A DNA stretch of 64,000 nucleotides from Agromyces bracchium (GTDB lineage: Bacteria > Actinomycetota > Actinomycetes > Actinomycetales > Microbacteriaceae): assembly GCF_009709675.1 (NCBI RefSeq), contig NZ_WMLB01000047.1, positions 1 through 64,000 of the forward strand, read 5' to 3'. The stretch's first letter is position 1. Each line of letters starts with the position of its first letter. Made by a program: the position numbers and the translations under genes. Positions 10,065 to 38,127 of the stretch are shown in pieces. The notes under the pieces were generated by a model. That model was not told the origin of the DNA, made no database searches, and saw nothing but the letters and a program-made list of their open reading frames with translations.

Positions 10065-10113
10065 CGGGTTCCTTTCGTTGCAGCGGGTCGGCTCCGCGGA
10101 GGTCTCGGGCGGC

Positions 10114-13841: not shown

Positions 13842-13881
13842 GGTTCGCCTCGTTTCCGGTCGGTCGCGGCATCCGCGCCGC

Positions 13882-13900
13882 TTTGGATACCGTATCCAAA
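13882..13900. promoter_or_regulatory. Operator-like palindrome A
   Basis: TTTGGATACCGTATCCAAA is a perfect palindrome around one central base, and contains TGGAT-N5-ATCCA. It lies 41 bp upstream of the zinc dehydrogenase start that heads the LigAB operon. The same core recurs at 13983, 22617, 36244 and 37198. Confidence 0.8.
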
Positions 13901-13982
13901 AATGCGTCGGTTCGTCCAGACCGAGATCGAACCCATCGTCCCCCGAAGACGTTCGTCAGCAAACCGTGGACAGAAGCTCCAG

Positions 13983-14001
13983 TTTTGGATACGGTATCCA
14001 G
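13983..14001. promoter_or_regulatory. Operator-like site B
   Basis: TTTTGGATACGGTATCCAG is a second copy in the same divergent intergenic region, 69 bp upstream of the binding-protein start at 14070. All 14 positions outside the N5 spacer are identical to site C at 22617. Two sites about 100 bp apart could serve both divergent promoters. Confidence 0.8.
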
Positions 14002-14069
14002 CAATTCGCGAGAGGCTCCGCTCTCCGCGGGACGCCGACCGCGAGTCAACCCGCCAAGAATGGAGAGTC

Positions 14070-15155
14070 ATGCGCAGATCCATCCCTCGCTCCGGCCTCG
14101 CCGCGGCCGCCGGCCTGGCAGTGTTCGCACTGCTCACCGGCTGCGCCGCGGGCGCCCCCGCAGCAGGCAACGACACCGAGCCCGTCGAGCTCGCCGACGG
14201 CGAACCCGGCGAGCCGGAGGACACCGACATCACGGTGGCCATCCCCTTCCCCGACATCACCATGTACTCGATGTACGTGCTCGCCACCGACCTCGGCTAC
14301 TACGAGGAGGAGGGCCTCACGGTCGAGGTCATCACGGCCGACAACGTCACCGCGGCCGTGGCATCCGGCAGCGCCGACATCGGCGTGGAATCGACCGGCA
14401 CGGTCATCGAGGCGATCCGCGGCGGCGTGGAGGTCGACCTCGTCTCCGGGCACTACTGCCGGCAGAACTTCGACTTCGCCGTGCAGCCCGACATCGAGTC
14501 GGTCGAGGACCTCGAGGGCACCTCGATCGTGCTCGCCGGCACGCCCGGCGACCCGGCCGAATTCCAGCGGGCACGCGTGCTCGCCGAGGAGGGCTGGGAC
14601 CTCGAGGGCGTGAACGTCGAGGTCGTCTACCCCGGCCCCGGCTCGGAGTCGTGGACGGAGTTCTTCGTGAACGACCGCATCACGCTGCAGCCGTTCTACG
14701 GCGACGACCGCCCCGCGCTGGAGGAGGCCGGCGCGAAGTTCCCGGTGGAGGCGCTGCGGAACTGGGCGAACGACGTCATGGTCGCGGGCAGCGGCTACGT
14801 GCAGGAGAACCCGAACACGCTCGTGCGATTCCTGCGGGCGACGCTGAAGGCCGTCGACTTCATGACCGCTCCGGCGCCGGGCGAGTTCCCCGACAACGTC
14901 AGCGAGGTGCTCGACATCTACGAGGCGAACGACTTCGACGTCGAGGCGCTCCGCGGCTCCGACAGCCCCTGGGTGCTCGACGGCCACCTCGCGTGCCAGA
15001 ACCTCTACTTCGACACCGAGGCCTGGGACACCACCGTCGAGACGCAGAGCCTCGAGCCGATCGAGTTCGACACCGCGCAGCTCGTCTACCTCGAGAAGGC
15101 CCAGGAGCTCCTCGGCCTCGACAACTCCGGTCCGGAGACGCTCCCCTACCCCTGA
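14070..15155 (+). CDS. ABC transporter substrate-binding lipoprotein (NMT1/THI5-like)
   Basis: 361 residues. The lipoprotein signal peptide ends in the lipobox LLTGC. The mature part has the NMT1/THI5 pattern: ITVAIPFPDITMYSMYVLATDLGYYEEEGL, then a DIGVESTGTVIEA ligand-site region. These proteins feed NitT/TauT-type importers for thiamine precursors, riboflavin, pyrimidines, taurine and other small molecules. No permease or ATPase is adjacent. The matching permeases and ATPase lie at 16.6-19.1 kb without a binding protein, and both loci carry the same operator motif. GGAGA precedes the ATG. Confidence 0.88.
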   Translation: MRRSIPRSGLAAAAGLAVFALLTGCAAGAPAAGNDTEPVELADGEPGEPEDTDITVAIPFPDITMYSMYVLATDLGYYEEEGLTVEVITADNVTAAVASGSADIGVESTGTVIEAIRGGVEVDLVSGHYCRQNFDFAVQPDIESVEDLEGTSIVLAGTPGDPAEFQRARVLAEEGWDLEGVNVEVVYPGPGSESWTEFFVNDRITLQPFYGDDRPALEEAGAKFPVEALRNWANDVMVAGSGYVQENPNTLVRFLRATLKAVDFMTAPAPGEFPDNVSEVLDIYEANDFDVEALRGSDSPWVLDGHLACQNLYFDTEAWDTTVETQSLEPIEFDTAQLVYLEKAQELLGLDNSGPETLPYP

Positions 15156-15173
15156 CCCGATCCCCCGCACGAT

Positions 15174-15215
15174 CGACGGGCCCTCGCCGCAGCGCATGAC
15201 GGCGGGGGCCCGTCG
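15174..15215 (+). terminator. Terminator after binding-protein gene
   Basis: CGACGGGCCC (15174-15183) and GGGCCCGTCG (15206-15215) form a perfect 10-bp stem. An inner CGCCG/CGGCG pair extends it. It starts 18 bases after the stop codon. Confidence 0.75.
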
Positions 15216-16106
15216 CGTGCCCGGCTGCGGCGGTCACAGGTCGCGGCCCGGATCGGGCACTGATGTGATTCCACAGGTCGGGTGGAGAGGTATGCGCGGT
15301 TCACCTTTCCACCTCGACATTCATGAACAGATCGACTGCGGGTGCGATCAGTGTGCGCCGTCAGCGGCGGCCACGCCGTCGCTCGACGCAATGACTCGCG
15401 CCCGGATTCCAAGTCCGTGAGGGATCCGGTCGACGCAATCCGGGAGAAAAGGAGAACTGAACCACCTTTCTCCCTCAGTTCACGAGTCCATCGTCGTCTC
15501 GCGTTCGTGCGACGGCGGCTACCCGGACACCGTTGATGCATGGTGGGTGAACACCATCCGGCGGAACCGCTCGGTCGCCGGTCCACCGACGATGGTCGCT
15601 GAGCGTGAGCAGGGTGTCCTGTCACCAGGACGCGTCACTACGATGACCAGGTTGGTTTCCGCCGGCGTGAGGAAGAGGACAGCTCGCTCTTCGGCGTTGT
15701 GCTGGGTGGTGTCGGAGCTCTCGCGATGGCGTGGGGATGTGGTGGCTCGCGGCCTACATCTTTGCGTCTGTCGATGGTGACGTCCTTGTTCCCCTCGCTG
15801 AAGGGCGTCTCGCCGGCCACCGACCTTGGTCCTCCTCGTCCTGTTCGGGCTCGGGGGACTCCTCGGGGTCGGTGCGTTCGGATTCATCGTGTGGATCCTG
15901 ATCTTCACCGCTTGGGAGGGCAGGCGTGGGCGTGCATAGCGCGCAGGCGTCTCGCTGACGGTAGCTGACTGGGCGGTCGCGGTCTTCGACGCCGCGAAGG
16001 GATCGGCGCGAGCGTCGTCATGGAGCACCCGTCCGATTCTGGTCACAGTGAGGGCACCCATCGGACGACGCGGACCGGGCCGGAACCGGCGCTCCAGCGC
16101 AGAGCA
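15216..16106. other. Gene-poor interval of about 0.9 kb with lower GC
   Basis: No intact gene is convincing. The DNA is visibly less GC-rich than its neighbours (AT-rich patches around 15300-15480 and 15640-15800). Possible short frames on both strands lack family resemblance, ribosome sites or actinobacterial codon bias. The best coding signal is the broken membrane-protein gene annotated at 15640-15939. The composition is compatible with an old insertion or decaying foreign DNA. Confidence 0.6.
15640..15939 (+). pseudogene. Frameshifted remnant of a small membrane protein
   Basis: Three consecutive frames carry protein-like segments that would join into one polypeptide after one-base shifts. 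The first, from about 15640, reads HYDDQVGFRRREEEDSSLF, then GVVLGGVGALAMAW. The second, from about 15736, reads MWWLAAYIFASVDGDVLVP. The third, from 15826 to the stop at 15937, reads LVLLVLFGLGGLLGVGAFG and continues FIVWILIFTAWEGRRGRA. The last is a clear hydrophobic helix with a positive C-terminal end. No start codon or ribosome site fits. I call it a decayed membrane-protein gene; sequencing error is less likely because two shifts are needed. Confidence 0.45.
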
Positions 16107-16143
16107 GCCGGCCCCCGTCATCGCGCATGAGACGGGGGCCGGC
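16107..16143 (-). terminator. Terminator of the RidA/transporter operon
   Basis: GCCGGCCCCCGTC and GACGGGGGCCGGC form a perfect 13-bp stem with an 11-base loop, 24 bases beyond the RidA stop codon on the minus strand. Confidence 0.8.
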
Positions 16144-16167
16144 GGTCTGGGGCGAGCGGATGCCGCG

Positions 16168-16620
16168 TCAGCCGCTCCGCGGAGCGGCGGGTTCGGGCGG
16201 GGAGGCGGGCGCGGCGACATCCGCCCGCGACGGCACCGCCGCGATCGCCTCGATCTCGAACCGGTACTCGGGGCCGGCGAAGCCGGCGACCTGCACGAGC
16301 GTCGACACGGGGAAGTCGTGCGTGAAGTACCGGGCGCGGATGTCGCGCACGTCGTCGCGCACGAGCCGGAAGTCGTCGCGGACGAACACGTTCACCTTGA
16401 CGACGTCGGCGGGGGTCGCGCCCGCGGCATCCAGCACCGCGGCGAGGTTGGCGAAGGCGAGCTCCACCTGCTCACGGGCGTCGGGCGGCATCGTGCCATC
16501 CGCTCGCATGCCGATGATGCCGCTGACAAACACCAGGTCGCCACCGGAGACGCGGATGGCCTGGCTGAAGTCCGCCGTCGGCGGGTAGACCCCGACGGGC
16601 CGGATGATCTGCTTGAGCAT
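16168..16620 (-). CDS. RidA/YjgF family protein
   Basis: 150 residues. The Rid fold is recognisable from the N-terminal PVGVYPPTADFSQAIRVSGG, DLVFVSGIIGM, and the C-terminal strand region STLVQVAGFAGPEYRFEIEAIAAVP. RidA enzymes hydrolyse reactive enamine/imine intermediates; catabolic-cluster members such as RutC clear unstable ring-opening products. The key Arg of active deaminases is not obvious to me near the C-terminus, so catalysis is uncertain. A Pro/Ala tail of about 15 residues is unusual. It is the last gene of the operon starting at 22537, followed by a strong terminator. Confidence 0.84.
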   Translation of the reverse strand: MLKQIIRPVGVYPPTADFSQAIRVSGGDLVFVSGIIGMRADGTMPPDAREQVELAFANLAAVLDAAGATPADVVKVNVFVRDDFRLVRDDVRDIRARYFTHDFPVSTLVQVAGFAGPEYRFEIEAIAAVPSRADVAAPASPPEPAAPRSG

Positions 16621-16631
16621 GCGCGAGCCCC

Positions 16632-17471
16632 CTACGACGCCCCGACGATCTTGCGGTCGTCGTACCAGGGGGCGAGCCGGCGACGCAGCGTCGAGATGAG
16701 CCACAGCGTGAGGTTCGCGATGATCACCATGACGATCACCAGGGCGATCGCCTCGGCCATCATGAACTGGTACGCCGCGAACTCGAGCAGGTGCCCGAGG
16801 CCGCCCGTGCCGCCGAGGAACTCGCCGAGCACCTCGCCCGTGAACCCGAGGGCGGCGCCGCGCTGAATGCCCGAGAGGCTGTACGGCAGGGTCGCGGGGA
16901 AGATCACCTTCCAGCCGAGGTAGACGCCGTTCACGCCGAAGACGCGGCCCGCGCTCACGAGCGACGGGCTTACGGCGACGGCGCCCTCCATCGTGTTGAG
17001 GATGATCGGGAACACCGCGAGCAAGAACACGAGCGCGATCTTCGACTCGTTGCCGAGCCCGAGGATCAGGATGAAGAGCGGCGCGAGCGCCACCTTCGGC
17101 GTCGAGTACAGCAGCCAGAGGAACGGTGCCACGGTGAAGCGCAGCACCGGCGACCAGCCGACCGCGAGGCCGACGACCACGCCGACGACGATCGCGAGGG
17201 CGAGACCGATCAGCAGGTTCTGCATGCTGTAGACGAACGCCTGCCAGAACTCCGGTTCGCCGAGAAGCCGGACGAACGCGGCGATGATCTCGGTCGGCGG
17301 CGGCAGGAACGCCGCGGGCACGAGCTGCAGCCAGCTCACCGCGGCCTCCCAGATGAGCAGGACGGCTGCGACGACGCCGACGAGCAGCCACGCCCACTTG
17401 CCCTCGCCGGAGCGGACGACCCGGCGCGGACGGACGATGCGGTTCGTCCCGGTCGCTGAGGTGACGGTCAT
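16632..17471 (-). CDS. ABC transporter permease (NitT/TauT type), subunit 2
   Basis: 279 residues with about six membrane helices and the BPD_transp_1 EAA-type loop near GWKVIFPATLPYSLSGIQRG. The cytoplasmic coupling region contains RVFGVNGVYLG. It forms an apparent heterodimer with the neighbouring permease (17468-18301), sharing a four-base ATGA overlap. NitT/TauT importers carry small organic anions or heterocycles. The start at 17471 is fixed by that overlap. Confidence 0.88.
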   Translation of the reverse strand: MTVTSATGTNRIVRPRRVVRSGEGKWAWLLVGVVAAVLLIWEAAVSWLQLVPAAFLPPPTEIIAAFVRLLGEPEFWQAFVYSMQNLLIGLALAIVVGVVVGLAVGWSPVLRFTVAPFLWLLYSTPKVALAPLFILILGLGNESKIALVFLLAVFPIILNTMEGAVAVSPSLVSAGRVFGVNGVYLGWKVIFPATLPYSLSGIQRGAALGFTGEVLGEFLGGTGGLGHLLEFAAYQFMMAEAIALVIVMVIIANLTLWLISTLRRRLAPWYDDRKIVGAS

Positions 17472-18301
17472 CGGCGTGCCTTCCTCGTCCACGGTGCGAC
17501 CCAGCGCTCCACGAGGGTCACGACCTGCGTCATTCCGACGCTCCACACCACGACGAGCGCGATCGCCGCGAACGCCTGGTCGGTCTGGTAGGTGTTGGCG
17601 GCGCGGATGATGACCGCGCCCATTCCCTGCGCCGAACCGGTGAGCTCGGCCACGACCATGCCGATCGTCGCGAGCACGACCGCCTGCCGGAGCCCGGCGA
17701 AGAGGAACGGCACGGTCGACGGCAGGTACACCGACCGGTACAGCTGGAACCGGCTCGCACCGAACACCGTGCCGGCCCGGATGATCGACGGATTCGTCGT
17801 CCGCATGCCCGCCGCCACGTTCAGCAGGATCGGGAAGACCGCACTGATCGCGACGAGGAAGATCACGGGACCGATGCCGAACCCGAACCACGCCTTCGCG
17901 AGCGGCTGGTAGGCGATCGTGGGCGTCGCGTAGATCGTCCACGCGATGGGCCCGACGACGCGGTCGACGGGCAGCGACGTGCCCATGAGCAGGCCGAGCG
18001 GGATCCCGATCGCGACCGCGATCGCGAAGCCCGTGAGCCACGCCTGCAGCGACACGAGCGCGTTCGTCGCGAGCACCCCGCTCGACCACAGCTCGAGGAA
18101 GCCCTGCCAGATCGCCGACGGCGGCGGGAAGAACACCGGGTTGATCCAGCCGAGCACGCCGACGACGAGCTGCCAGAGCACGAGCATCACGACGACCTCG
18201 GCGGCGAGCACGAGCGCCTTGCCGCGCGCGCTCAGCCCGGCGAGCCACGCTCCGATGCCGCCGCGACCGAGGTTCGGTCCCGAGGCGAGGAACGTGCTCA
18301 C
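17468..18301 (-). CDS. ABC transporter permease (NitT/TauT type), subunit 1
   Basis: 277 residues with about six hydrophobic helices and the EAA-like coupling loop around YRSVYLPSTVPFLFAGLRQA. It overlaps both the ATPase (ATGA at 18298-18301) and the second permease (ATGA at 17468-17471), a tight three-gene transporter block. No binding-protein gene sits in this operon. The lone binding lipoprotein at 14070 is the best candidate partner. Confidence 0.88.
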   Translation of the reverse strand: MSTFLASGPNLGRGGIGAWLAGLSARGKALVLAAEVVVMLVLWQLVVGVLGWINPVFFPPPSAIWQGFLELWSSGVLATNALVSLQAWLTGFAIAVAIGIPLGLLMGTSLPVDRVVGPIAWTIYATPTIAYQPLAKAWFGFGIGPVIFLVAISAVFPILLNVAAGMRTTNPSIIRAGTVFGASRFQLYRSVYLPSTVPFLFAGLRQAVVLATIGMVVAELTGSAQGMGAVIIRAANTYQTDQAFAAIALVVVWSVGMTQVVTLVERWVAPWTRKARR

Positions 18302-19131
18302 TTCGACACCGCCGCTGCGGTCGCCTCACCCTGCAGCGCGTCCCACAGGTGGTCGCGGAGCTCGAGGAAGCGCGGGTCGCTCTGGATGCTGCGCTCCGAC
18401 CGCGGTCGCGCGAGTCCGGTCTCGATGACCTCCTTGATGGCGCCCGGATGGCTCTTGAACACCACGATCCGGTCGCCGAGCAGGATCGCCTCCTCGATGG
18501 AGTGCGTGATGAAGAGCACCGTCTTGCCCGTCGCCGCGATGAGCTTCTCGATCTCGGCGCGCATGACCTCGCGCGTGAGCGCGTCGACCGCGCCGAGCGG
18601 CTCGTCCATCAGCAGGATCCGCGGTTCGGCGACGATCGCGCGAGCGAGACCCACGCGCTGCTGCATGCCGCCCGAGAGCTCGCGCGGGTACGAGTGCTCG
18701 AAGCCGCTGAGCCCGACGAGCTCGATCGCCTCCTGCACGCGGTCGCGCCATCCGCTGCCCTTCAACGCCTTCTGCATCTCGAGCCCGAACTTCACGTTGT
18801 CGAAGACCGTGCGCCACGGCAGCAGCGCGTAGTCCTGGAACACGACCGCCCGGTCGGGGCCGGGGCCCGTGACCGGTTCCCCGGCCACGAGCACCTGCCC
18901 CGACGTGGGCTTCACGAGCCCCGCGATCACGTTCATGAAGGTCGTCTTGCCGCAGCCCGACGGCCCGAGCACGGTCACGAACTCGCCCTCGCGGACGTCG
19001 AGGTCGACGCCCTCGATCGCCACGAGCTTCTTGCCGGTCCGGGCGACGTCGTAGCTCACGGTCAGGTCGCGCACCGAGATCAGCGACGAGACGGATGCCT
19101 CGTCCTCGGCCGGCTCGATGGTGGTCGTCAT
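18298..19131 (-). CDS. ABC transporter ATP-binding protein (NitT/TauT type)
   Basis: 277 residues. Walker A is GPSGCGKTT, the Q-loop follows in VVFQDYALLPWR, the signature is LSGGMQQRV, Walker B is ILLMDEPLGAVD, and the switch His lies in LFITHSIEEA. The YALLPWRTV Q-loop is typical of SsuB/TauB-type importers. I chose ATG 19131 because AGAGGGGA precedes it; a longer in-frame start at 19155 lacks one. Confidence 0.92.
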   Translation of the reverse strand: MTTTIEPAEDEASVSSLISVRDLTVSYDVARTGKKLVAIEGVDLDVREGEFVTVLGPSGCGKTTFMNVIAGLVKPTSGQVLVAGEPVTGPGPDRAVVFQDYALLPWRTVFDNVKFGLEMQKALKGSGWRDRVQEAIELVGLSGFEHSYPRELSGGMQQRVGLARAIVAEPRILLMDEPLGAVDALTREVMRAEIEKLIAATGKTVLFITHSIEEAILLGDRIVVFKSHPGAIKEVIETGLARPRSERSIQSDPRFLELRDHLWDALQGEATAAAVSK

Positions 19132-19168
19132 CGCAGTCCCCTCTCCCATGTCCACGGGGCACCCTCGA

Positions 19169-20176
19169 TCAGGTCAGCGCCGGCTCGGCGGCGCGCTGGC
19201 GCATCTTCGGCAGCACCTCGGTGCCGAGCAGCTCGATCTGCTCGAAGAAGCGGTCGAACTTGAACCGGAAGTCGAACACGAGGTGCTCGGTGCCGATCGC
19301 CTCGAACTTGCGGAGCTCCTCGACCGCCTCGTCGGGGTCGCCGACGATGAGCTGGCCCTCCAGGTCCTCGACGGTCTCGAACGTACCCGAGGGCGGCTTG
19401 ACGGCGAACTTCGCCTTGTTCGCCCAGGCGAGCAGGCCCGGGATGTTCACGTGCTTCAGGGCCTCCTCGCGCGTCTCCTCGATGGAGGTGGGCGGGATCA
19501 CCGACACGGTCGGCATCGGGCGGCCCGAGGCATCCGTCAGCTCGCGCATGTTGGCGATGCGCTTCTCCATGGTCGCGAGCGAGATGCGCCCCGGCATCCA
19601 GCCGTCGGCGTACTCGGCCGCGAGCCGCGCCGAGCGCGGGGTCGCGCCGCAGTACCAGAACGGCACGCGCCCGCCGACGGGCTTCGGCTCGATCGTGACG
19701 TTCTCGAACGAGAAGATGCCGTCGTCGTAGGTCACGTCGTTCTCGGTGAACACGCGCTTCAGGATCTCGGCATTGGAGCGGACCGCCTCGACCCGGTCGA
19801 GGTCGCCCCAGCCGATCGCCTCGAACTCGTGGTCGAACGTGCCGGCACCGAAGCCCAGGATGAGGCGCGGGCCGACGAGCTGGGTGATCGTGCCGGCCAT
19901 GAGCGCGGTGACGAGCGGGTGACGGAACGGGATGAGCGACCCGGTGCCGAGCTCGAGCCGCTCGGTGACCGCGCCGATCGCGGTGAGCGTCGTGAGCGCG
20001 TCGTAGAAGGTGCGGTTCGGCTTCTCCATCTCGCCGTGCGGCTCGAAGACGAGGTGGTCGCGCACCCACACGGAGTCGAAGCCCATCTTCTCGGCGAGCT
20101 GCGAGCCCTCGAGCAGCTTCTCGCGACTGGCCTCCTCGCCGAAGTGCGGCAGCAGCAGTCCGAATTTCATCGCCAT
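19169..20176 (-). CDS. LLM-class oxidoreductase, probably F420- or flavin-dependent
   Basis: 335 residues of luciferase-like TIM barrel. Landmarks are MKFGLLLPHFGEEASREKL, SVWVRDHLVF, ELGTGSLIPFRHPL, a glycine-rich ILGFGAGTFDHEF, and FWYCGATPRSARLAAEYADG. It is too short to be a clear RutA. In this operon it follows the hydantoinase-like gene by one base and precedes the transporter ATPase. The nearby, similarly regulated cofE-cofC-fgd operon makes F420H2 a reasonable cofactor guess. A hydride-transfer step on a cyclic substrate before ring hydrolysis would fit the order of enzymes. Confidence 0.82.
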   Translation of the reverse strand: MAMKFGLLLPHFGEEASREKLLEGSQLAEKMGFDSVWVRDHLVFEPHGEMEKPNRTFYDALTTLTAIGAVTERLELGTGSLIPFRHPLVTALMAGTITQLVGPRLILGFGAGTFDHEFEAIGWGDLDRVEAVRSNAEILKRVFTENDVTYDDGIFSFENVTIEPKPVGGRVPFWYCGATPRSARLAAEYADGWMPGRISLATMEKRIANMRELTDASGRPMPTVSVIPPTSIEETREEALKHVNIPGLLAWANKAKFAVKPPSGTFETVEDLEGQLIVGDPDEAVEELRKFEAIGTEHLVFDFRFKFDRFFEQIELLGTEVLPKMRQRAAEPALT

Positions 20177-20177
20177 G

Positions 20178-21590
20178 TCAGTTCCCTTCCGTTCCGGCCG
20201 TCTCGGCCGAGATGTCGGCCGGCGCGGCCGCGAGCTTCCCGTATCCGGGTTCGCCGACGACGGCGCCGTCGGCGTAGACGTCCCGGCCGCGCACGAGGGT
20301 GCGCTCGATCCGGGTGCTGATGGTGCGGCCGTCGTACGGCGTCCAGCCGATCTTCGAGAGCACGTCGTCGTTCGTGATCGTCCACTCGTGCTGCATGTCG
20401 GCGATCACGATGTCGGCGTCGGCCCCGACCTCGAGCGTGCCCTTCACCCCGGCGAGCCCGAACTTGTCGGCGGGGATCCGGGCGACCATGTCGACCGCAC
20501 GCTCGAGGGTCAGCTCGCCGCGGTTCACGGCGTCGAGCATGAGCTCGTAGTAGTACTGGATGCCCGGCGTGCCGGTGTGGGCGCTCCACATCTCGGTCCA
20601 GCCGATCTCCTTCTCCTCGCGCGTGTGGGGCGCGTGGTCGGAACTCGCGATGTCGATCGTGCCGTCGCGCATGCCCTCCCAGATCGCGGCGCGGTTGTCG
20701 TCGGGCACCCAGTACGACAGCGCGTACGGGCCGAGCGTCTCGACGTCGTGCCAGGTCGAGAGGAACGGCGCCCAGTGGTTGACCTCGCACGTGACGTCGA
20801 TGCCGGCGGCCTTTGCACGTCGCACGGCCTCGATCGAGCGGCGTGTCTGGATGTGCGCGATGTGCACGGGGCATCCGGATGCCTCGGCGAGACGCAGGAT
20901 CACGTCGATCGCCGTGTCCCAGATGACGCCCTCGCGCGCGGCGTACGCCGAGGCGTAGCCCTGCGGCGTGTTCTCGCCGCGCGCCAGCACCTCGCCCTCG
21001 ATGTAGTCCATGAGCGCCTGGTCGTGCGGGTGCACGATGAACCGCTTGCCGGTGCCGGCGATGCGGTCCATGATCTGCAGCAGGTGGCCGTGGTCGTGGA
21101 TGCCGGTGCCCGCGGGGTGCGGGTAGGTGCGGCCGGTGTCGACGACCATGTAGATCTTGTAGGCGTTGATGCCCATCTCGGCCATCGGCACGATGTCGTC
21201 GAACTTCGTCGGCGCCGGGTTGTGGTTCCAGTCGACGATCGACGTCGACGCGTACCGCTCGAAGACGTCGGTCAGCGTCTCGACGTCGACGGTCGGCGGG
21301 TTCAGGTTCGGCATGCCGAAGATGGTCGTCACGCCGCCGGCGGCGGCCTGCCGCGTGGTCGTGAGGATGTCGTCCTTGTGCTCGTAGCCGGGCTCCCGGG
21401 TGTGCACGTGGACGTCGACCATGCCGGGCAGCACGAGCCGCCCGGTCGCGTCGATCGTGCGGGCGGCGTCGACGGCGACGCCGGGTGCGACGAGGCCGGC
21501 GATCCGGCCGTCGTCGACCAGCAGGTCGGCGGTGGTGGGGCCGGACGGCGTCACGACGACGCCGCCGGCGATCCTCAGGTCGATGGTCAC
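20178..21590 (-). CDS. Hydantoinase / dihydroorotase-like cyclic amidohydrolase
   Basis: 470 residues with a complete binuclear-metal active site. HxH is in GMVDVHVHTRE (residues 61 and 63), the carboxylated Lys in NAYKIYM (about residue 150), two His in FIVHPHD and VHIAHIQT, and the catalytic Asp in IASSDHAPHT. The family opens cyclic amides such as dihydropyrimidines, hydantoins, dihydroorotate or allantoin; the specificity here is not readable. It starts with GTG overlapping the upstream hydrolase stop (GTGA). There is no pyrimidine-biosynthesis context, so a catabolic role is more likely. Confidence 0.88.
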   Translation of the reverse strand: MTIDLRIAGGVVVTPSGPTTADLLVDDGRIAGLVAPGVAVDAARTIDATGRLVLPGMVDVHVHTREPGYEHKDDILTTTRQAAAGGVTTIFGMPNLNPPTVDVETLTDVFERYASTSIVDWNHNPAPTKFDDIVPMAEMGINAYKIYMVVDTGRTYPHPAGTGIHDHGHLLQIMDRIAGTGKRFIVHPHDQALMDYIEGEVLARGENTPQGYASAYAAREGVIWDTAIDVILRLAEASGCPVHIAHIQTRRSIEAVRRAKAAGIDVTCEVNHWAPFLSTWHDVETLGPYALSYWVPDDNRAAIWEGMRDGTIDIASSDHAPHTREEKEIGWTEMWSAHTGTPGIQYYYELMLDAVNRGELTLERAVDMVARIPADKFGLAGVKGTLEVGADADIVIADMQHEWTITNDDVLSKIGWTPYDGRTISTRIERTLVRGRDVYADGAVVGEPGYGKLAAAPADISAETAGTEGN

Positions 21591-22537
21591 TGCGGTGCCT
21601 CCATGCGATCGATCGACTCGCCCAGGCCGGGCGAGCGGGTGGTGCGGACGTCGACGTGGCTCGGGCGCACGTAGCGGTCGAGCCAGTCGACGATCAGCGG
21701 GGTGGTCTCTTCCCAGTAGCGGTCGTAGGCGGCGTAGTGGGTGGTGTGCCGCTGCATGACGAGCTGCCTGGGGCCGCGGGCCGCGGCGTACAGCCGCTCC
21801 GCGTGGTCGGTGGGCGTGGTCGCGTCGCCCTCGACGCCGATGACGAGGAGGGGCGTGGTGAGCCGGGCGGCGGCGTCGATCGGCCGGTAGCCGAGGATCT
21901 CCTCGGCGCACGAGAGCGGGATGGCGCTCGGGATGCGGTCGTCCACGTCGGCCTTGATCGTCGTCGCGCGACGCTCGGGCGTCGGGACCATGATCTCCTC
22001 GCGCGGGTGCACGAGACGCCCCTCGCCGGTCGTGACACGGCGGCGCCGGTCCTCCTCGAGTCCGGCCAGGAACGCGAGCCACTCGTGCTCCTGGCGCATG
22101 CGGTGCAGCCAGTCGGTGCCGTCGGCGACCGGGACCTGGCTCACGGCCGCCTTGACGCGCGGGTCGGCGTCGGCGAGCAGGACGGCGTTGCCGCCACCCG
22201 TGCCGCCGGTGCCGAAGACGCCGATCGCGTCGGCGTCGACGTCGTCGCGCGTGGTCAGGTAGCTGACCGCGTTGACGAGGTCCTGCAGCTGCCGGGCGGG
22301 GGAGAGGATGCCGCGGTCGCCGCCCGAGTCGCCGAAGCCGCGGTAGTCGAAGACCAGCACGGCGAAGCCGGCGGCCACGAGGGCCTCGTGGTAGCGGACG
22401 TAGAGCTTGGCGTCCTTCAGCCCGAGCCATCCGGGGCCCTGGACGATGGCCCGGTACGGGCCCGCCTCATCGGGGGTGCGCCAGAGTCCCGCGAGGCGGT
22501 CTCCCTCGCTGTAGAACTCGACCGGTGTCGTCTGCAT
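21587..22537 (-). CDS. Alpha/beta hydrolase-fold protein with an altered nucleophile elbow
   Basis: 316 residues. The fold is evident: the oxyanion region IVQGPGWLGLKDAKL, VFDYRGFGDSGG, the strand DADAIGVFG, a C-terminal acid in LLVIGVEGDATTP, and the late His in QRHTTHYAAYD. The nucleophile elbow reads GTGGTGGGN where relatives have GxSxGG, so the expected Ser, Cys or Asp appears to be Gly. It could use another mechanism, be non-catalytic, or be a lyase-like variant. It is the first gene of the seven-gene operon ending with RidA. AAGGA precedes ATG 22537, and operator-like site C lies 80 bp upstream. Confidence 0.82.
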   Translation of the reverse strand: MQTTPVEFYSEGDRLAGLWRTPDEAGPYRAIVQGPGWLGLKDAKLYVRYHEALVAAGFAVLVFDYRGFGDSGGDRGILSPARQLQDLVNAVSYLTTRDDVDADAIGVFGTGGTGGGNAVLLADADPRVKAAVSQVPVADGTDWLHRMRQEHEWLAFLAGLEEDRRRRVTTGEGRLVHPREEIMVPTPERRATTIKADVDDRIPSAIPLSCAEEILGYRPIDAAARLTTPLLVIGVEGDATTPTDHAERLYAAARGPRQLVMQRHTTHYAAYDRYWEETTPLIVDWLDRYVRPSHVDVRTTRSPGLGESIDRMEAPQ

Positions 22538-22616
22538 GGATGCGACGTCCTTCCGTTGAACGCTGCGACGCGTGGTTCGGGTGGATTCCAGCACCCGTGA
22601 TTTGGATCATGCACCA

Positions 22617-22635
22617 TTTTGGATCCAGAATCCAG
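22617..22635. promoter_or_regulatory. Operator-like site C
   Basis: TTTTGGATCCAGAATCCAG matches the TTTTGGAT-N5-ATCCAG pattern of site B exactly outside the spacer. It lies in the divergent region between the hydrolase operon (80 bp upstream of its start) and the proposed F420-0 binding-protein gene (137 bp upstream). Extra GGAT half-sites flank it (22582, 22602 and an ATCC at 22642), suggesting cooperative binding. Confidence 0.78.
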
Positions 22636-22771
22636 TATTGAATCCATTTCCACCGCGTGGAATGATGACGAGTGACCGCCGGTTCGGATTGACCGGTCGG
22701 GCCGGCCCGGGATTGGGCCGCGAGTCGCCGACGTTCGTCGGATCACGCACGCACACCGTCCCGGAGGCCCC

Positions 22772-23791
22772 ATGTCCACGTTCACGAATCCCCGATCCCG
22801 TGCCGCGCGCGTCGTCGCGCCGCTCGCCGCCGCGGCATCCGTCGCCCTGCTCGCCGCGTGCGCCTCGACGGCGAACGCCGGCGCCGACGACGCGAGCGGC
22901 GGCCAGGACGCCGCAGCGTCCGGCTTCCCCGTCACGGTCGACAACTGCGGCACCGAGGTGACCTTCGACGCCGCCCCCGAGCGCGTCGTCACGATCAAGT
23001 CGTCGACGCTCGAGCTGCTGCTCGCGCTCGGCCTCGAGGACCGCGTCGTCGGCGCCGCGTTCACCGACGGACCCGTGCCCGACGAGAACGCCGACGCCGC
23101 TGCGGGCATCGAGATCCTCTCCGACAAGGTGCCCTCGCAGGAGGCGACGCTCGCCGCCGAGCCCGACCTGGTCTTCGCCGGCTGGGAGTCGAACCTCACC
23201 GCAGAGGGCGCGGGCGACCGCGCGACCCTCGAGCAGCTCGGCGTGCACACCTACGTCGCGCCCGCCGCGTGCAAGGCGGAGGGCTACATGCCCGACCCGC
23301 TGACCTTCGACGGCGTGTTCGCCGGCTTCGAGGAGGCGGGCGAGATCTTCGGTGCGACGGATGCCGCGGCCGACCTCGTCGCGGAGCAGCGCGCCGCGCT
23401 CGAGGCGATCGAGCCGAGCGACGACGGCCTCACCGCGCTCTGGTACTCCTCGGGCGACGACCAGCCGTTCGTCGGCGCCGGCATCGGCGCACCGCAGATG
23501 ATCATGGAGGCCGCGGGCCTCACGAACGTCGCCGCCGACGTGCACGACACCTGGACCTCGCTCTCGTGGGAAGCCGTCGTCGACGCGAACCCTGACGTGA
23601 TCGTGCTCGTCGACGCCGCGTGGAACACCGCCGAGGCGAAGATCGAGAAGCTCGAGGCGAACCCCGCGACGGCCGCGATGCCCGCCGTGCAGCAGGGCCG
23701 CTACGTGATCGTCGACTTCCCGTCGACCGAGGCGGGCGTCCGCAACGTCGACGCCGTCGCCTCGATCGTGGAGCAGCTCGGGGCACTCTGA
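22772..23791 (+). CDS. Substrate-binding lipoprotein of proposed F420-0 type ABC importer
   Basis: 339 residues. The lipoprotein signal ends LLAAC. The mature part is a helical-backbone (cluster A, FecB/BtuF-like) binding protein: a PERVVTIKSSTLELLLALGL entry, GLEDRVVGAAFTDG, and EPDLVFAGWESN. It resembles the family predicted in silico to import F420-0 precursors and usually encoded near F420 genes; that substrate has not been proven as far as I know. The stop shares a base with the permease start (TGATG), so binding protein, permease and ATPase form one operon. Confidence 0.82.
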   Translation: MSTFTNPRSRAARVVAPLAAAASVALLAACASTANAGADDASGGQDAAASGFPVTVDNCGTEVTFDAAPERVVTIKSSTLELLLALGLEDRVVGAAFTDGPVPDENADAAAGIEILSDKVPSQEATLAAEPDLVFAGWESNLTAEGAGDRATLEQLGVHTYVAPAACKAEGYMPDPLTFDGVFAGFEEAGEIFGATDAAADLVAEQRAALEAIEPSDDGLTALWYSSGDDQPFVGAGIGAPQMIMEAAGLTNVAADVHDTWTSLSWEAVVDANPDVIVLVDAAWNTAEAKIEKLEANPATAAMPAVQQGRYVIVDFPSTEAGVRNVDAVASIVEQLGAL

Positions 23792-25877: not shown

Positions 25878-25917
25878 GCGGATGCCGCGACGCGGGCATC
25901 GGCGTAGCGTGGCCGCC

Positions 25918-26895: not shown

Positions 26896-26945
26896 CGCGA
26901 GGCCGCGGCATCCGCTCGCGACCCGGCTGAGCCGCAGCCACCCCG

Positions 26946-28938: not shown

Positions 28939-28948
28939 CGGCGGCCCG

Positions 28949-30292: not shown

Positions 30293-30483
30293 GCCCTCAG
30301 GCTACGCCCGCCCTGACACGTCGAGCCCGGTGCGGGGCGAATTCGCAGGCTGCCGGGCCCCGCGTCGACCCCGCCCGCCGCCGTCGCCGGTCGACCACCG
30401 CACCGCGCAACCCCATTGCCCGGTGTCGCCGTCCGGGTCTACGGTGGGCAGCATTCGCTTGTAACCAGTTCGGGGGGTATCCC

Positions 30484-32331: not shown

Positions 32332-32341
32332 GCGCGACGAT

Positions 32342-32375
32342 CGGTGGTCGAGTCGCCGCGAGCGCTCGACCACCG
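32342..32375. terminator. REP-like hairpin between convergent ggt and fgd
   Basis: CGGTGGTCGAG and CTCGACCACCG form a perfect 11-bp stem around a 12-base loop. It lies between the convergent stops of ggt (32331) and fgd (32386), so it can terminate from both sides. A related sequence occurs at 52740-52856. Confidence 0.75.
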
Positions 32376-32385
32376 GTGCGACCGG

Positions 32386-33411
32386 CTACCCCAGCGCGCG
32401 CAGCCTCGGCGCGAGGTCGCGCTCGAACAGCTCGAGGAATCGCAGCTGGTCGTGGCCGGGCGCGTGGAACACGAGGTGGTTGAAGCCCCAGTCCACGTAC
32501 TGCCCGATCTGGGCGACGACCTCGTCGGGGTCGGTGCCGACGATCCAGCGGCCCGCGATCTCCTCGATCGGCAGCGCGTCGGCGGCCTGCTCCATCTCGA
32601 CCGGGTCGGTGATGTCGTGCTTCTGCTGCTTCGAGAGCGACAGCGGCGACCAGAACCGGCAGTTGTCGAGCGCGTCGTCCTCGTCCTCCTCGTACGACAG
32701 CTTGATCTCGATCATGCGGTCGTACCCGTCGAACGCGAGTCCGTCGCCCCGGGCCTCGAGCCCGTCCTTCACGGCCGGCATGAGCTGGTCGACGTAGAGC
32801 CCTGCCCCCTTGCCCGACGTGCAGATGAAGCCGTCGCCGGCCCGGCCGGCGTACTTCGCGACCTGCGGCCCGCCCGCCGCGATGTAGATCGGCACGCCGC
32901 CATCCGGTCGGTCGTAGATCGACGCGTCGTGGGTCGAGTAGTACTCGCCCTCGAAGTTCACGCGCTCGCCGTTCCAGAGCGCGCGCATCAGCCGGACCGC
33001 CTCGCGGAGTCGCGCGTAGCGCTCGCGGAACTCGGGCCACTCCTGCTCGCCGGCCCCCTGGAAGCCGGTCGCGATCTCGTTGAGCGCCTCGCCCGTGCCG
33101 AAGCCGGCGATCACGCGGTCGGGATACATGACGCCGAGCGACGCGAACGCCTGCGCGAGCACCGCCGGGTTGTACCGGAACGTCGGCGTCATGACGCTCG
33201 TGCCGATCTTCACGGTCGAGGTGCGCTCGCCGACGGCCGCCATCCAGGTGAGCGAGAAGGGCGCGTGCCCGCCGGTGTGGCGCCAGGGCTGGAAGTGGTC
33301 GCTCGCCCACACGGACTCCATGCCGTGCGCCTCGGCCGCGACGGCGATCTCGACGAGCTGGCGCGGGTCGAACTGCTCGGCGCTGGCCTTGTATCCGAGG
33401 GTCAGGGTCAC
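32386..33411 (-). CDS. fgd: F420-dependent glucose-6-phosphate dehydrogenase
   Basis: 341 residues. It matches mycobacterial Fgd1 along its whole length as I know that sequence: [81 protein letters not shown]. The active-site His39, Asp38, Trp43, Glu12 and Glu108 correspond to H40, D39, W44, E13 and E109 of the M. tuberculosis enzyme. It oxidises glucose-6-phosphate and produces F420H2. A short GAGEQE insertion occurs after residue 115. The GTG start overlaps the cofC stop (GTGA), so it is co-translated with F420-maturation genes. Confidence 0.95.
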
Positions 33412-34298
33412 GATGCTGCCTTCCTGTCTGCGCCGTGCGGCGCGGTTGCGGCGCCCGTGGGCGCGGTCGATGGGTCGAGCGGATGCCGCGGCGCGGCGCC
33501 GTCGGCGAGGTCGACCCGGTCGCCGAGCCCGCCGACCACCTCGGCGGTCCGGACGTGCACGCCGAGCGCGATGGCCTCGCGCAGCTCGCCCGCGGTGTCG
33601 ACGTCGCGGCGGAGTCCCGGCGCGATCGCGCGAGGCTCGAGCGCGACGAGGTCGGCGAAGCCGGCCGCGCGGTGGCGGGCGGCCGAGTCGGGCCCGAAGT
33701 GCGCGGTGAACGGCACCCCGGCGAGCGCGGTCGCGAGCGTGGTGCCTGTCCCTTCGGCATCGGCCACGAAGGCGAGCGGATGCCGCGCCGCGGCCTCGAG
33801 CGCCGCATCGAGGTCGTCCGGCCCCATGGCCGGCAGGTCCCCGAGCAGCACCGCGACCGCGCCATCCGCCCCGCTCGCCGCTTCCTCGCGGGCCTCCGCG
33901 GTCTCATCGAAACGTCCCGGATGGCGAGCAGCACCCTGCATCCGCGACGTCTCGATCGCGGGAGCGGTCGACGGCAGCGTCGGCGGCGCGGCCGCACGGG
34001 CGACGGCGATGCCGTGCGCGATCGCAGCGGCGAGGCCGCGCGGACCGAACTCGGGCACGACGTCGACCCCGGGCACGCCGCGCAGCTCGCGCTCGACGAC
34101 CGGCTCGTCGGACACGACGACGACCCGCCGCACGGCACGCGCCGCACGCGCGGCGTCGATCGTGTCGAGCGCGAACGCCCGCGCGAGCGCGGCCCGCTCC
34201 GCGGGCCCGAGCTCGGGTGCGAGCCGGGTCTTCGCGCCCGTGAGCGATTTCACTGGCACGACGACGATCCAGCCGGGCGCGTCGTTTCGCGGACTCAT
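33408..34298 (-). CDS. cofC: 2-phospho-L-lactate guanylyltransferase (CofC/FbiD)
   Basis: 296 residues. It activates 2-phospholactate or phosphoenolpyruvate with GTP for CofD. Family blocks are [65 protein letters not shown] and [14 protein letters not shown]. At nearly 300 residues it is longer than usual (about 210-230). A roughly 35-residue linker interrupts the core between the [11 protein letters not shown] helix and AVLLGDLPA, and an Ala/Pro-rich tail follows. Both additions look disordered. It is coupled by ATGA to cofE upstream and GTGA to fgd downstream. Confidence 0.9.
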
Positions 34299-35164
34299 CG
34301 GGGCACCCGCTCCCGCTCGACGGCGGCGAGCGCGGCGGCGAATCCCTCGGCGAAGCCGATCGAGCGGCCGGCCGAGTACCCGGCGGTGCGGCCCGCCGTC
34401 ATGCCCTGCGCCATCGCCTCGTCGGCGCCGAGCCGGAACAGGTCGCGCTCGGCGGGCCGGACGATCGACCTCGCGCCGGGCAGGTCGAGCGGTCCGACGA
34501 GGTGCCCGACGCCCGAGACGACGGCCACGGGGCATCCGCTCGCCTTGCCCTTGACCAGGTCGCCCGCCGCGGCGAGCTCGTCGGCGACGCACGGCATGGT
34601 CACCGAGAGGGGCTTGCCCGCGGCATCCGTCGTGCCCCGCAGGTCGTCGAGCACCTGCACGCCGGCGGCGCCGATCGCGACGTCGGTCTGCCCCTCGCGC
34701 CATGGGCGGCCGAGGGTGTCGCTGAGGATGACGCCGATCCGGCGGCCGGTCCGCGCCAGCACGCCCTCGGCGATCCGGCGGGCCGAGGCGTCGGGGTCGA
34801 CGGGCAGCAGCAGCACGGTGCCGTCCTCGGTGTTGCTGGCGTCGACGCCCGCGGCCGCCGCGACGATCCCGAGCCGGTTCTCGACGATGCGGGTGATGCC
34901 GCCCTCGTGCGCCCGGGTCGCGACGACGCGCACCGTCTCGTCGGTGATCGCCTGCTCGCGATCCGCCGCTCGAACGATCCGCCCCTCGGCCTTCGAGACG
35001 ACCTTCGAGGTCACGACGAGGATGTCGCCGTCGACCAGCGTGTCGCCGGCCGACGCGAGCACGACCTCCACGAGATCGTCGCCGGGGCGGATCTCGCCGA
35101 TGCCCTCGAGCACGCGCACCGCGAGCGTCGGGCCCGCCGGCTGCGCGCTGGTCGCCGTGCTCAT
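34295..35164 (-). CDS. cofE: F420-0:gamma-glutamyl ligase (CofE), copy 1
   Basis: 289 residues. Conserved CofE blocks are [56 protein letters not shown], a [18 protein letters not shown] motif and [20 protein letters not shown]. The enzyme adds gamma-linked glutamates to F420-0. It lacks the C-terminal nitroreductase-like domain of mycobacterial FbiB, so it is the short CofE type. The operon order LLM oxidoreductase, cofE, cofC, fgd has four-base overlaps throughout, and operator-like site D sits upstream. Confidence 0.92.
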
Positions 35165-36153
35165 GCGCGCAGCCCCGGAAGCACGTCGCGGCCGAACACC
35201 TCGAGGAACCGCTGCTGGTTGCGGCCGACGTTGTGGAGGTAGATCCGGTCGAAGCCGAGGTCGAGGTGGCGCTGGAGGTGCGCGCGGTGCACGTCGGGGT
35301 CGGAGGACACGAGCATCCGGCCCTCGAAGTCCTCCGGTCGCACGGTGCGCGCCAGCTGCTCGAACTCGAAGGGCGAGCGGATGTCGCTGCGCGAGAACCG
35401 CATGCCGCCGATCGGCCACTCGGTCAGGGCGTTCCGCATCGCCTCGGCGTCGGTCTCGGCCCACGACACGTGGAGCTGCAGCACTCGCGGCATCGCGCTC
35501 GCGTCGCGGCCCGACTCGCGGGCGCCCTCGGCGAACCGGGCGACCAGCGCGGCGAGCCGGTCGTACGGCCCGCCCGTCGTGATCAGCCCGTCGGCCGCCT
35601 TGCCGGCCCGACGTGCGGTGACCGGACCGTTGGTCGCGACGAGCACCTGGGGCGCGACGGGCGGCATGGTCCAGAGTCGCGTCGTCTCCATTCGGAAGTG
35701 CGGGCCGTGGTGTCGCACCTCGCGGCCGGCGATCGAGGCGGCGAAGAGCTTGCGGATGACCTCGACGGCCTCGAACATGCGCGCGATGCGCTCGTGCGCC
35801 TCGGGCCAGTACTCGCCGACGACGTGCTCGTTGAGCGCCTCGCCGGAGCCGATCCCGAGCCAGTGCCGGCCCGGGTACATGGAGGCGAGGGTCGCGCTGG
35901 CCTGGGCGACCACTGCCGGGTGGGTGCGGAAGGTCGGCGTCGTGACACCCGGGCCGAAGTCGCCCCGGGTGCGCGCGCCGATCGCGCCGAGCACGCTCCA
36001 AACGTGCGCCGACTGCCCCTGCTGCGGGAGCCAGGGCTGGAAGTGGTCGGTCGCCATGGTGCCGGAGAACCCGTGCCGTTCCGCCAGTTCCGCATACGCG
36101 ACCGCGTCGGATGGAGGGAACTGCTCGAGCATCGCGGCGTAGCCGATGTGCAC
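35161..36153 (-). CDS. FGD-family LLM oxidoreductase (F420-dependent)
   Basis: 330 residues, closest to the Fgd-like subfamily: a [14 protein letters not shown] start, [15 protein letters not shown] (the same Asp-His-Phe-Gln-Pro-Trp as Fgd), [20 protein letters not shown], and [13 protein letters not shown]. The F420-site residues are kept, but GGHAPFS, part of the sugar-phosphate side in Fgd, reads GQSAHVWS. The substrate is therefore probably not glucose-6-phosphate. I prefer GTG 36153 because GGAGG is seven bases upstream; GTG 36159 is nearly abutted by it. First gene of the cofE-cofC-fgd operon. Confidence 0.88.
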
Positions 36154-36243
36154 TGACACCCCTCCATCCTGACGCGTCGTCGCAGTGGTGTCATTCGGGG
36201 CCGGTCGGCCCGAACGGCGGGTCCACCTCCCGCTCGTCCATTA

Positions 36244-36262
36244 TTTCGGATACTGGATCCAG
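36244..36262. promoter_or_regulatory. Operator-like site D
   Basis: TTTCGGATACTGGATCCAG fits TTTTGGAT-N5-ATCCAG with one mismatch (C for T). It lies 91 bp upstream of the FGD-family gene that heads the cofE-cofC-fgd operon. On the minus strand it shares TTCTGGATCCA with sites C and E. Confidence 0.75.
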
Positions 36263-36303
36263 AATGCAAGCATGGACTTCGAGCGCCACGTGGCGCGGAG
36301 CGG

Positions 36304-36391
36304 CTCGGGCTGGAGGGACTCAGCCGCGGACTCCTCGGGCTGGAGGGACTCAGCCGCGGAGCAGCTCAGGCTGGAGGGACTCAGCCGCGCG
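36304..36391. repeat. Three tandem 30-31-bp hairpin repeats at the GntR 3' end
   Basis: Three copies of CTCGGGCTGGAGGGACTCAG followed by CCGCGGA begin at 36304, 36334 and 36365 (the last with two changes). Each contains GGCTG-N8-CAGCC, a self-pairing stem. The stop codon of the GntR gene (36381-36383) lies inside the third copy; the other two are downstream of it. They may terminate the GntR transcript or protect its 3' end. There are no unique spacers, so this is not CRISPR. Confidence 0.8.
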
Positions 36392-37154
36392 AACGCCGAC
36401 GACGGGCCGGCGCCGCCTGCGCGAGGGACTCCGCCTCGAGCATCTCGAGCACGCCGTCGCGCACGCCCTCGAGGTGATGCTGCAGCAGCTGCACGGCGGG
36501 TTCGACCTCGCCCGCGGCGACCGCATCCGTGAGCTCGTCGTGCGAGTGGTGGTGGGTGTCGTCGCCGACGAGGCGCCACCCGAGCATGTAGCGGCCGACC
36601 TTCAGCCGGAGCTGCTCGATGAGCTCCCACTGGATCGGTCGACGGGCGGCATCGTAGAGCTCCGCGTAGAACGCGGTCCGGGCGTCGACGAAGTCGCCGC
36701 CCTCCTGCTTCGCATCGGCGGTCCGCCCGAGCTCGCGGAGGCGCGCGAGCCGCTGGTCGGTCATGTCGGCCATCGACTGCCGCAGCGCCGCCGTCTCGAG
36801 CAGGATGCGCAGCTGGTAGACCTCGCGCGCCTGTTCGACGGAGAGCGACTTGACGACGGCACCGCGCCGGTCGTGGAACTCGACGAGGCCGTCGGATTCG
36901 AGCTGGATCAGAGCCGAGCGCACGGGCAGCCGCGAGACGCCGATCAGCTCGGCGAGCGTCTCCTGCCGCAGCTTGTGCCCGGGCGGGAGCGTTCCGTCGA
37001 GGATCGCCTCGCGGATGATGTCGTACGCCATGACGCCCACCGACCGGTACCCGACGGCGTGGCGCCCGGCGAGCCGCGCGAGCGCCGCCTCCGGATCGCT
37101 CGGCGTCCCGACCTCGATGGACTCGTCCGCGCCGTTGCGCTCGCCTGCCGTCAT
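36381..37154 (-). CDS. GntR-family regulator, FCD subfamily
   Basis: 257 residues. An N-terminal winged helix-turn-helix (AYDIIREAILDGTLPPGHKL, then LIGVSRLPVRSALIQLESDG) is followed by an all-helical FCD ligand domain (VYQLRILLETAALRQSMADM to HSHDELTDAVAAGE) with His residues suited to metal or ligand binding. FCD regulators usually sense organic acids and repress catabolic operons. Operator-like sequences lie just upstream (37198-37212 and 37157-37173), suggesting autoregulation. I use ATG 37154; an in-frame GTG at 37181 is possible. The C-terminal tail is Arg-rich and ends inside a tandem repeat. Confidence 0.9.
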   Translation of the reverse strand: MTAGERNGADESIEVGTPSDPEAALARLAGRHAVGYRSVGVMAYDIIREAILDGTLPPGHKLRQETLAELIGVSRLPVRSALIQLESDGLVEFHDRRGAVVKSLSVEQAREVYQLRILLETAALRQSMADMTDQRLARLRELGRTADAKQEGGDFVDARTAFYAELYDAARRPIQWELIEQLRLKVGRYMLGWRLVGDDTHHHSHDELTDAVAAGEVEPAVQLLQHHLEGVRDGVLEMLEAESLAQAAPARRRRSRG

Positions 37155-37212
37155 GGATCCCGAATGTATCCGAAAGATCACGGCGAAGTCTGCATCTTGG
37201 ATCCAGAAATCA
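37154..37212. promoter_or_regulatory. Operator-like site E and half-sites before the GntR gene
   Basis: TTGGATCCAGAAATCA (37197-37212) has the TGGAT half-site and the same CCAGA spacer as site C, but a degenerate right half. It is 44 bp upstream of the GntR ATG. Closer to the start, GGATCC and TATCCG half-sites (37155-37173) abut the start codon. Together they suggest autoregulation. Confidence 0.65.
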
Positions 37213-38027: not shown

Positions 38028-38127
38028 GTGCCCACCCTCCCGCTCGGCCCTCCTCACATCTTGGCAGCAGGCTCGGCCGCTGTCAGACTTCGGTCAGGGC
38101 GCGCGGGGCGCGCCGGGGGAGGGTCGG

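Follow-up and report, generated by a model that had tools for sequence, protein, structure and literature searches.

A predicted GntR/FCD regulon connecting catabolic operons with F420 genes in Agromyces bracchium

Organisation of the locus and its operator sites

The DNA analysed here (the window) comprises 64,000 nucleotides, positions 1 to 64,000 of the forward strand of contig NZ_WMLB01000047.1, from the genome of Agromyces bracchium (assembly GCF_009709675.1; 4,159,874 bases in 47 contigs, rated 100% complete, labelled G000). It contains catabolic operons, genes for the completion and reduction of F420, and a gene, gntR (36381–37154, minus strand), encoding a 257 amino acid FCD-type GntR regulator with both domains over the Pfam cut-offs (GntR, 1.1e-17; FCD, 1.9e-18). 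We consider it probable, from the sequence evidence set out below, that this regulator is a ligand-released repressor controlling the catabolic operons together with the F420 completion genes, probably an importer of F420-0 or FO, a distant PotABCD-like importer and, with less certainty, its own gene.

Three palindromic sites in the window match TGGAT-N5-ATCCA exactly. Operator A (13882–13900, minus strand; palindrome 13884–13898, TGGATACCGTATCCA) precedes the operon of alcohol dehydrogenase (ADH), OsmC, CoA transferase, Amido2, LigB and LigA genes; operator B (13983–14001, plus strand; palindrome 13986–14000, TGGATACGGTATCCA) precedes a lone binding-protein gene, whose start was placed at 14070 from the reading frame and ribosome site; and operator C (22617–22635, no strand assigned; palindrome 22620–22634, TGGATCCAGAATCCA) lies between the divergent alpha/beta-hydrolase operon and a fepB-like importer gene. 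Operators D and E, both on the minus strand, carry one mismatch. D (36244–36268), consisting of two overlapping registers (36247–36261 and 36254–36268), stands before the operon LLM_B-cofE1-cofC-fgd, and E (37190–37208; palindrome 37191–37205), the weakest and only partly conserved site, before gntR. Most of the sites fit TGGATNC-N-GNATCCA.

All five palindromes had been proposed in an earlier reading of this DNA without database searches (the sequence-only reading), and they are present at the positions given there; the identity of B and C outside the spacer and the element TTCTGGATCCA, common to C, D and E on the minus strand, are likewise borne out by the window. The unit behind operator A had been described as a LigAB operon, and it does carry LigB- and LigA-like genes; these stand at the operon end, and the leader gene itself is zinc alcohol dehydrogenase-like. 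The exact pattern with a gap of 3–8 bases was found three times in the window against 0.08 expected, a number reached in 0 of 100 shuffles, and a 19-mer with up to three mismatches gave 11 matches against 0.38 expected, several of them being one site counted on both strands. A separate 19-base stretch, ctggagggactcagccgcg, occurs three times, about 30 bases apart, at 36310–36389, between operator D and the gntR stop codon.

Occurrence of the motif in other genomes

Frequent occurrence outside promoters would be expected of a chance motif, and this is not what was found: the exact pattern is present in the A. bracchium genome in three copies, all in the window, and its reversed form, the control in genome scans, in none. 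With up to one mismatch, 21 places were found against 4 for the reversed control. A survey of promoters and leaders was made in 83 sources (the window, loci L047 and L048, and 80 fetched loci; 1.62 Mb), with 29 palindromes permuted from the same letters as controls; it revealed 64 exact sites, whereas the controls averaged 0.72 and reached at most 9. The leaders with an exact site number 16 of 27 for ADH, 15 of 24 for the binding protein and 23 of 26 for fepB; the fepB site is shared with the alpha/beta-hydrolase leaders, 69 in number, where 26 exact sites and 15 more with one mismatch were detected. The 11 LLM_B leaders have one exact site and five with one mismatch, and only 2 of 373 unassigned leaders have an exact one. 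Many of the surveyed loci are closely related, so these counts per leader gene are not independent. Among the alpha/beta-hydrolase promoters listed, site C is exact in 18 of 20.

Further genomes (n = 29) were scanned with the exact pattern, and the reversed control matched in one. The sites were tallied for 22 other cluster-bearing genomes, after a duplicate (G451, identical to G251) was dropped and the single sites of G456 and G457 were left out. Of the 68 exact sites listed, 55 fall in or beside the cluster, including two (G243, contig 16) assigned through their likeness to G447 sites only and two in G454 that stand 9–11 kb from LLM_A, the luciferase-like oxidoreductase of the pathway. Four Agromyces genomes without the catabolic genes contain 0, 1, 0 and 0 exact sites. 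The sister species G142, where the cluster is inverted, has a site, exact or with one mismatch, at all five promoters. At distant loci with GntR proteins 35–40% identical to that of the window, the promoter palindromes drift, as exemplified by TGTATCAATTATCCA in Jiangella.

Co-segregation was analysed in a panel of 41 Agromyces genomes, using an operator-like pattern of 21 bases drawn from site D with up to two mismatches, which can also match sites C or E. LLM_A, GntR and this pattern were found in an identical set of 20 genomes, and none of them in the other 21; every genome keeping the catabolic core thus has both the regulator and the pattern (20/20), and no genome of the panel keeps the core without such a pattern. 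The 21 other genomes do retain F420 genes without the pattern, but they also lack GntR and the core; across the whole panel cofE is over the cut-off in 40 genomes and cofC in 38. In G461, G479 and G485 the listed pattern matches are at C only, and G461 has a D-like site in locus L175. On trees of 22 Agromyces rows from fetched loci (16 with and 6 without catabolic genes; rows G442 and G483 are one assembly, which leaves 21 distinct assemblies, not all of them within the panel), the trait changes three times with one protein or four times with three proteins, at least two of the changes being forced by well-supported branches. Linkage has therefore arisen or been lost on more than one occasion, though not on many. 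Taken together, the genome-wide, 83-source, other-genome and 41-Agromyces comparisons rule out a chance motif.

A sixth site outside the window

A sixth site with one mismatch, absent from the sequence-only reading, is located elsewhere in the genome (G000:C44:305991–306005), before genes for a PotA-like ATPase, a weakly recognised binding protein and a permease, forming a PotABCD-like importer; the regulon is larger than that reading had stated. In four Microbacterium loci the orthologous importer operon, with an ATPase 77–79% identical, adjoins LLM_B and has an upstream site, exact in three loci and with one mismatch in the fourth. Among 17 genomes with the sixth operon, a site precedes the ATPase start with up to two mismatches in 15 (in 12 of these with no more than one), and two have none. 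Of 29 genomes searched, one of them present twice, 17 encode the binding protein of this operon; it was not detected in any of four Agromyces without catabolic genes.

Genes of a meta-cleavage lower pathway (hydroxymuconic semialdehyde dehydrogenase, pentenoate hydratase and a third gene) are located near the sixth operon (L046:12472–15772) and are kept near LLM_B in four Microbacterium loci; their enzymes may process what the LigAB branch yields. Three additional exact sites are found in Microbacterium sp. MYb62 (L072:14304–14371 and 19470–19484): two precede an additional ATP-binding cassette (ABC) importer region, and the third precedes the following ABC gene downstream of LLM_A, perhaps indicating a larger regulon.

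Promoter geometry and mode of control

The position of the operators relative to core promoter elements bears on whether GntR would repress or activate. In the ADH promoter (minus strand), a -10-like TACGGT (13889–13894) lies inside operator A, 18 bp from a -35-like TGGACG (13913–13918); in the binding-protein promoter (plus strand), TACGGT (13990–13995) lies inside operator B, 17 bp from TGGACA (13967–13972). Palindrome bases 5–10 usually read TACNGT at both kinds of promoter. The hexamer T[ATG]GAC[AG] was detected at a distance of 17–18 bp in 21 of 25 distinct ADH promoters and 24 of 26 distinct binding-protein promoters, and once in total, at no ADH promoter, at the other 30 spacings between 8 and 39. 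At LLM_B (minus strand), operator D fills the spacer between a -35-like TTGCAT (36264–36269) and a -10-like AATAAT (36240–36245), and in the listed Agromyces promoters the operator likewise occupies the 17–18 bp between TTGC(A/T)T-like and AATAAT-like elements. A site with up to two mismatches is present in 22 of 29 LLM_B rows, and at least three of the remaining seven end at a locus edge.

Since the operators cover core promoter elements, we infer from this geometry that repression is favoured. Activation by bound GntR, at all or some of the promoters, would better suit site E, which lies 36–54 bp before the gntR start over no evident -10 element, and those sites that are more than 100 bp from a start codon. 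It fits poorly with a -10 element inside the operator and a -35 element at 17–18 bp, as at the ADH and binding-protein promoters, and with the operator-filled spacer at LLM_B, and we regard it as improbable.

The regulator

The predicted structure of the window GntR (pLDDT 82, pTM 0.70) matches the FCD regulators TM0439, CGL2915 and Atu1419 VanR in the PDB. The metal site of FCD domains, which is common but not universal, consists of D-x3-H, H and H. The residues of the window protein at these positions are R159-x3-Y163, H205 and H227, so that two of the four ligands, at R159 and Y163, are replaced and the D-H-H-H pattern is not present. R-Y-H-H was found in 41 of 43 regulator rows (five shorter matches dropped, some rows coming from one genome twice), down to about 32% identity, the exceptions being H-H-H-H and N-H-H-H; a 24-row alignment shows no variation at R159, Y163 or H205. 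The altered metal site is a variant of FCD, and the protein is still a member of the subfamily. Such a common altered pocket suggests a common non-metal effector.

Relatives of GntR (E-value of 1e-8 or lower) were found within the fetched flanks of 35 of 80 loci, those of distant actinobacteria included; in Agromyces the gene is frequently beyond these flanks. In Pseudolysinimonas kribbensis (L050:9354–10018, the same place as L092) the relative is split over two frames, perhaps being broken or reflecting an assembly error, and one Agromyces genome contains a second copy, 54% identical to the window GntR (G461:C2:142227–142916).

One could propose that another transcription factor reads the sites and that GntR is merely a neighbour, given that binding by GntR is a prediction and that the weakness of site E takes away part of the argument from autoregulation. 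However, GntR is the sole regulator among 30 Pfam-scanned proteins encoded between 8185 and 38057 (three of them without a match), it accompanies LLM_A and the operator-like pattern in all 20 genomes of the Agromyces panel where these occur, and it is found near the core in distant actinobacteria too. We therefore consider a different regulator very unlikely and retain GntR as the candidate repressor.

Catabolic genes

The genes behind operator A (8875–13841, minus strand) encode ADH, an OsmC-like protein, a type III CoA transferase, amidohydrolase 2, LigB and a LigA-like protein, the last being under the Pfam cut-off. The NMT1/THI5-like binding protein (14070–15155, plus strand), with its own promoter under operator B, has a formyl-aminopyrimidine binding protein among its nearest solved relatives, as a weak match. 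It is the likely partner of an ABC importer consisting of an ATPase and two permeases (16632–19131, minus strand), next to a protein assigned to the RidA family (16168–16620, minus strand). The minus strand further encodes LLM_A (19169–20176), recognised by profile and fold comparison as a luciferase-like oxidoreductase and the core pathway enzyme; a cyclic amidohydrolase of the hydantoinase/dihydroorotase/allantoinase type (20178–21590), for which the listed NCBIfam models are all under their cut-offs; and an alpha/beta hydrolase (21587–22537) with Pfam families over the cut-off and a UilS-like match under it.

Of the 80 fetched loci, 69 combine the alpha/beta hydrolase, the cyclic amidohydrolase and LLM_A. 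All three subunits of a molybdenum hydroxylase are encoded nearby in 15 of 80, and some loci also have an isochorismatase, a thiamine diphosphate (ThDP) enzyme, a class II aldolase or a cupin. This gene content suggests a pathway in which a nitrogen heterocycle is hydroxylated, reduced and opened by hydrolysis. The solved relatives of the binding protein, LigB, amidohydrolase 2, the cyclic amidohydrolase and the alpha/beta hydrolase name no substrate.

F420 genes, salvage and insertion of the catabolic genes

The F420 genes of the window are cofD (7078–8139, plus strand; TIGR01819, 296.8 bits against a cut-off of 257.45), the operon LLM_B, cofE1, cofC and fgd behind operator D (32386–36153, minus strand), and cofE2 (37245–38057, minus strand), the copy that is also present in species without the catabolic genes. 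The cofC of the operator-controlled operon is the only one over the cut-off in the genome. Divergent from operator C lies a putative F420-0 ABC transporter (22772–25877, plus strand), whose binding protein and permease (22772–24948) are over the curated cut-offs (TIGR03868, 486.2 against 392.4 bits; TIGR03869, 497.4 against 437.35 bits).

The genome contains cofC, cofD, two cofE and fgd, and no match to CofH (FO synthase, TIGR03551) was detected in it, the CofG model not being tried; therefore, A. bracchium seems unable to make FO and probably salvages it. With cofC and cofD in the genome, the importer would more likely carry FO than F420-0. Among 41 genomes searched for CofH, most of them with LLM_A, 17 have a match over the cut-off, 8 only weaker matches, and 16, including A. 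bracchium, none; several of these are metagenome assemblies. No mention of FO salvage, scavenging, uptake or auxotrophy was found by word searches of a 2021 F420 review (PMC8498797), where the sole transporter passage found concerns possible export by an endosymbiont.

The catabolic genes of the window (8875–22537, about 14 kb) sit between cofD and fepB (8139–22772). Among 16 Agromyces loci without LLM_A, cofD and fepB are found together in 12, representing a natural empty site; the gap is 107 to 924 bases in nine, 1.7–1.8 kb in two and 4.2 kb in one. The stretch sometimes holds small predicted genes, and one locus of the 1.7–1.8 kb class (L196) is rearranged. The available stretch ended before both genes had appeared in L189 and L194, and the pair was not seen in L186 and L198. 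A small gene of the window (8182–8655) may belong to the resident locus, since in L191 a 79% relative stands between cofD and fepB. In five loci without catabolic genes (L174, L176–L179), cofE, LLM_B, cofC and fgd stand together without GntR or operator, and in species with the catabolic genes GntR lies between cofE and LLM_B. A search for plasmid spread gave no match to LLM_A among 72,556 plasmid records.

The regulon could be real with the F420 genes as mere passengers, the target at D being LLM_B and LLM_A using flavin mononucleotide (FMN). LLM_A falls short of the cut-off for its best-matching F420 family (TIGR03619, 156 against 166.9 bits), FMN enzymes follow closely in the fold comparison of its model (pLDDT 88.9), and the 16 genomes without a CofH match come from a set mostly carrying LLM_A. 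On the other hand, cofC and fgd, in some species with a second cofE, follow LLM_B and the operator in Agromyces and several Microbacterium, and the F420-dependent enzymes Mer and FGD are among the best solved relatives of LLM_A by sequence and come first by fold. This alternative appears rather unlikely to us, and induction of the F420 genes for use by the pathway is the reading preferred here.

Proposed mode of regulation

Without inducer, a GntR dimer would bind palindromes near TGGATNC-N-GNATCCA, covering, in sigma-70-like promoters, the -10 element or the spacer between -35 and -10, and would keep RNA polymerase off. An effector, probably the substrate or an intermediate, would bind the modified FCD pocket and release GntR. 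The operon of alpha/beta hydrolase, cyclic amidohydrolase, LLM_A and importer, the separate binding protein, the ADH-CoA transferase-LigAB operon and LLM_B-cofE1-cofC-fgd would then be induced together, along with the distant PotABCD-like importer, probably the divergent F420-0/FO importer and, with less certainty, gntR. As A. bracchium apparently cannot produce FO, induction would increase the import and completion of F420, along with F420 reduction by Fgd, when a pathway consuming reduced F420 is switched on. The conservation of the sites, their co-segregation and the promoter geometry support the proposal of the sequence-only reading that one regulator couples a catabolic pathway to F420 maturation and reduction. 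Its term maturation is correct for the genes under operator D and is too narrow for the whole, as it did not recognise the F420-0 transporter family of the importer; import and maturation of a probably salvaged precursor would be more fitting.

Several results, besides the standing of LLM_A, weigh against this model. The one-mismatch pattern is unspecific, as its 21 genome matches indicate, and in the 83 sources its 100 occurrences exceed the control mean of 18.2, but one control reached 174; single one-mismatch sites therefore need other support. No site even at one mismatch is present in 28 of the 69 alpha/beta-hydrolase leaders, and 13 of the 68 listed exact sites fall outside the cluster. 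Co-segregation depends on a small number of independent gains or losses. The pattern for the -35 hexamer was picked after the promoters had been viewed, although the spacing scan was not so chosen, and the importer ATPase is just under its family cut-off (TIGR03873, 352.9 against 372.4 bits). Autoregulation retains site E in the window, G142, G338 and some others, where it is clear; this is the weakest site, the 12 gntR leaders surveyed have no exact and three one-mismatch sites, and several Agromyces have no site E before gntR at one mismatch or fewer, which makes autoregulation the least certain part.

A broader scenario, which we put forward tentatively and rate at somewhat under even chances, is that a horizontally spread catabolic island with its own repressor was inserted into, and captured, an F420-salvage locus. 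FO import, completion and reduction would be induced only for a dearomatising, F420-dependent breakdown of an N-heterocycle, and the inducer would be read by a metal-free R/Y/H/H FCD pocket common to the pathway regulators across actinobacteria.

Comparison with known systems

If true, the regulon would link a degradation pathway with the import and completion of F420 in bacteria apparently unable to make FO. It would allow tests of whether soil bacteria subsist on F420 precursors that other organisms release, and of what the core of alpha/beta hydrolase, cyclic amidohydrolase and LLM degrades. Judged by titles and abstract openings, no paper listed in searches of the openly licensed literature is apparently about such a regulon.

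Known FCD-type GntR catabolic repressors use short palindromic operators. VanR Atu1419, LldR/CGL2915 and TM0439 have the same GntR and FCD domains as the window regulator, and their folds match; unlike them, it has R159 and Y163, and its predicted regulon takes in F420 genes and an importer at a separate genomic location. Among actinobacteria, reduced F420 also serves catabolism in the breakdown of picrate and dinitrophenol by Nocardioides and Rhodococcus, which differs in its enzymes and in the type of regulator; we know of no link between these systems and F420 salvage. Two of the three importer subunits are over the cut-offs of the putative F420-0 transporter families (TIGR03868, TIGR03869 and TIGR03873), while the presence of cofC and cofD here makes FO the likelier cargo. 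The breakdown of N-heterocycles such as pyrimidines and nicotinate resembles the predicted pathway in its cyclic amidohydrolase, alpha/beta hydrolase and RidA and, at the 15 loci mentioned, its molybdenum hydroxylase, whereas the LLM core, CoA transferase and LigAB distinguish the present pathway.

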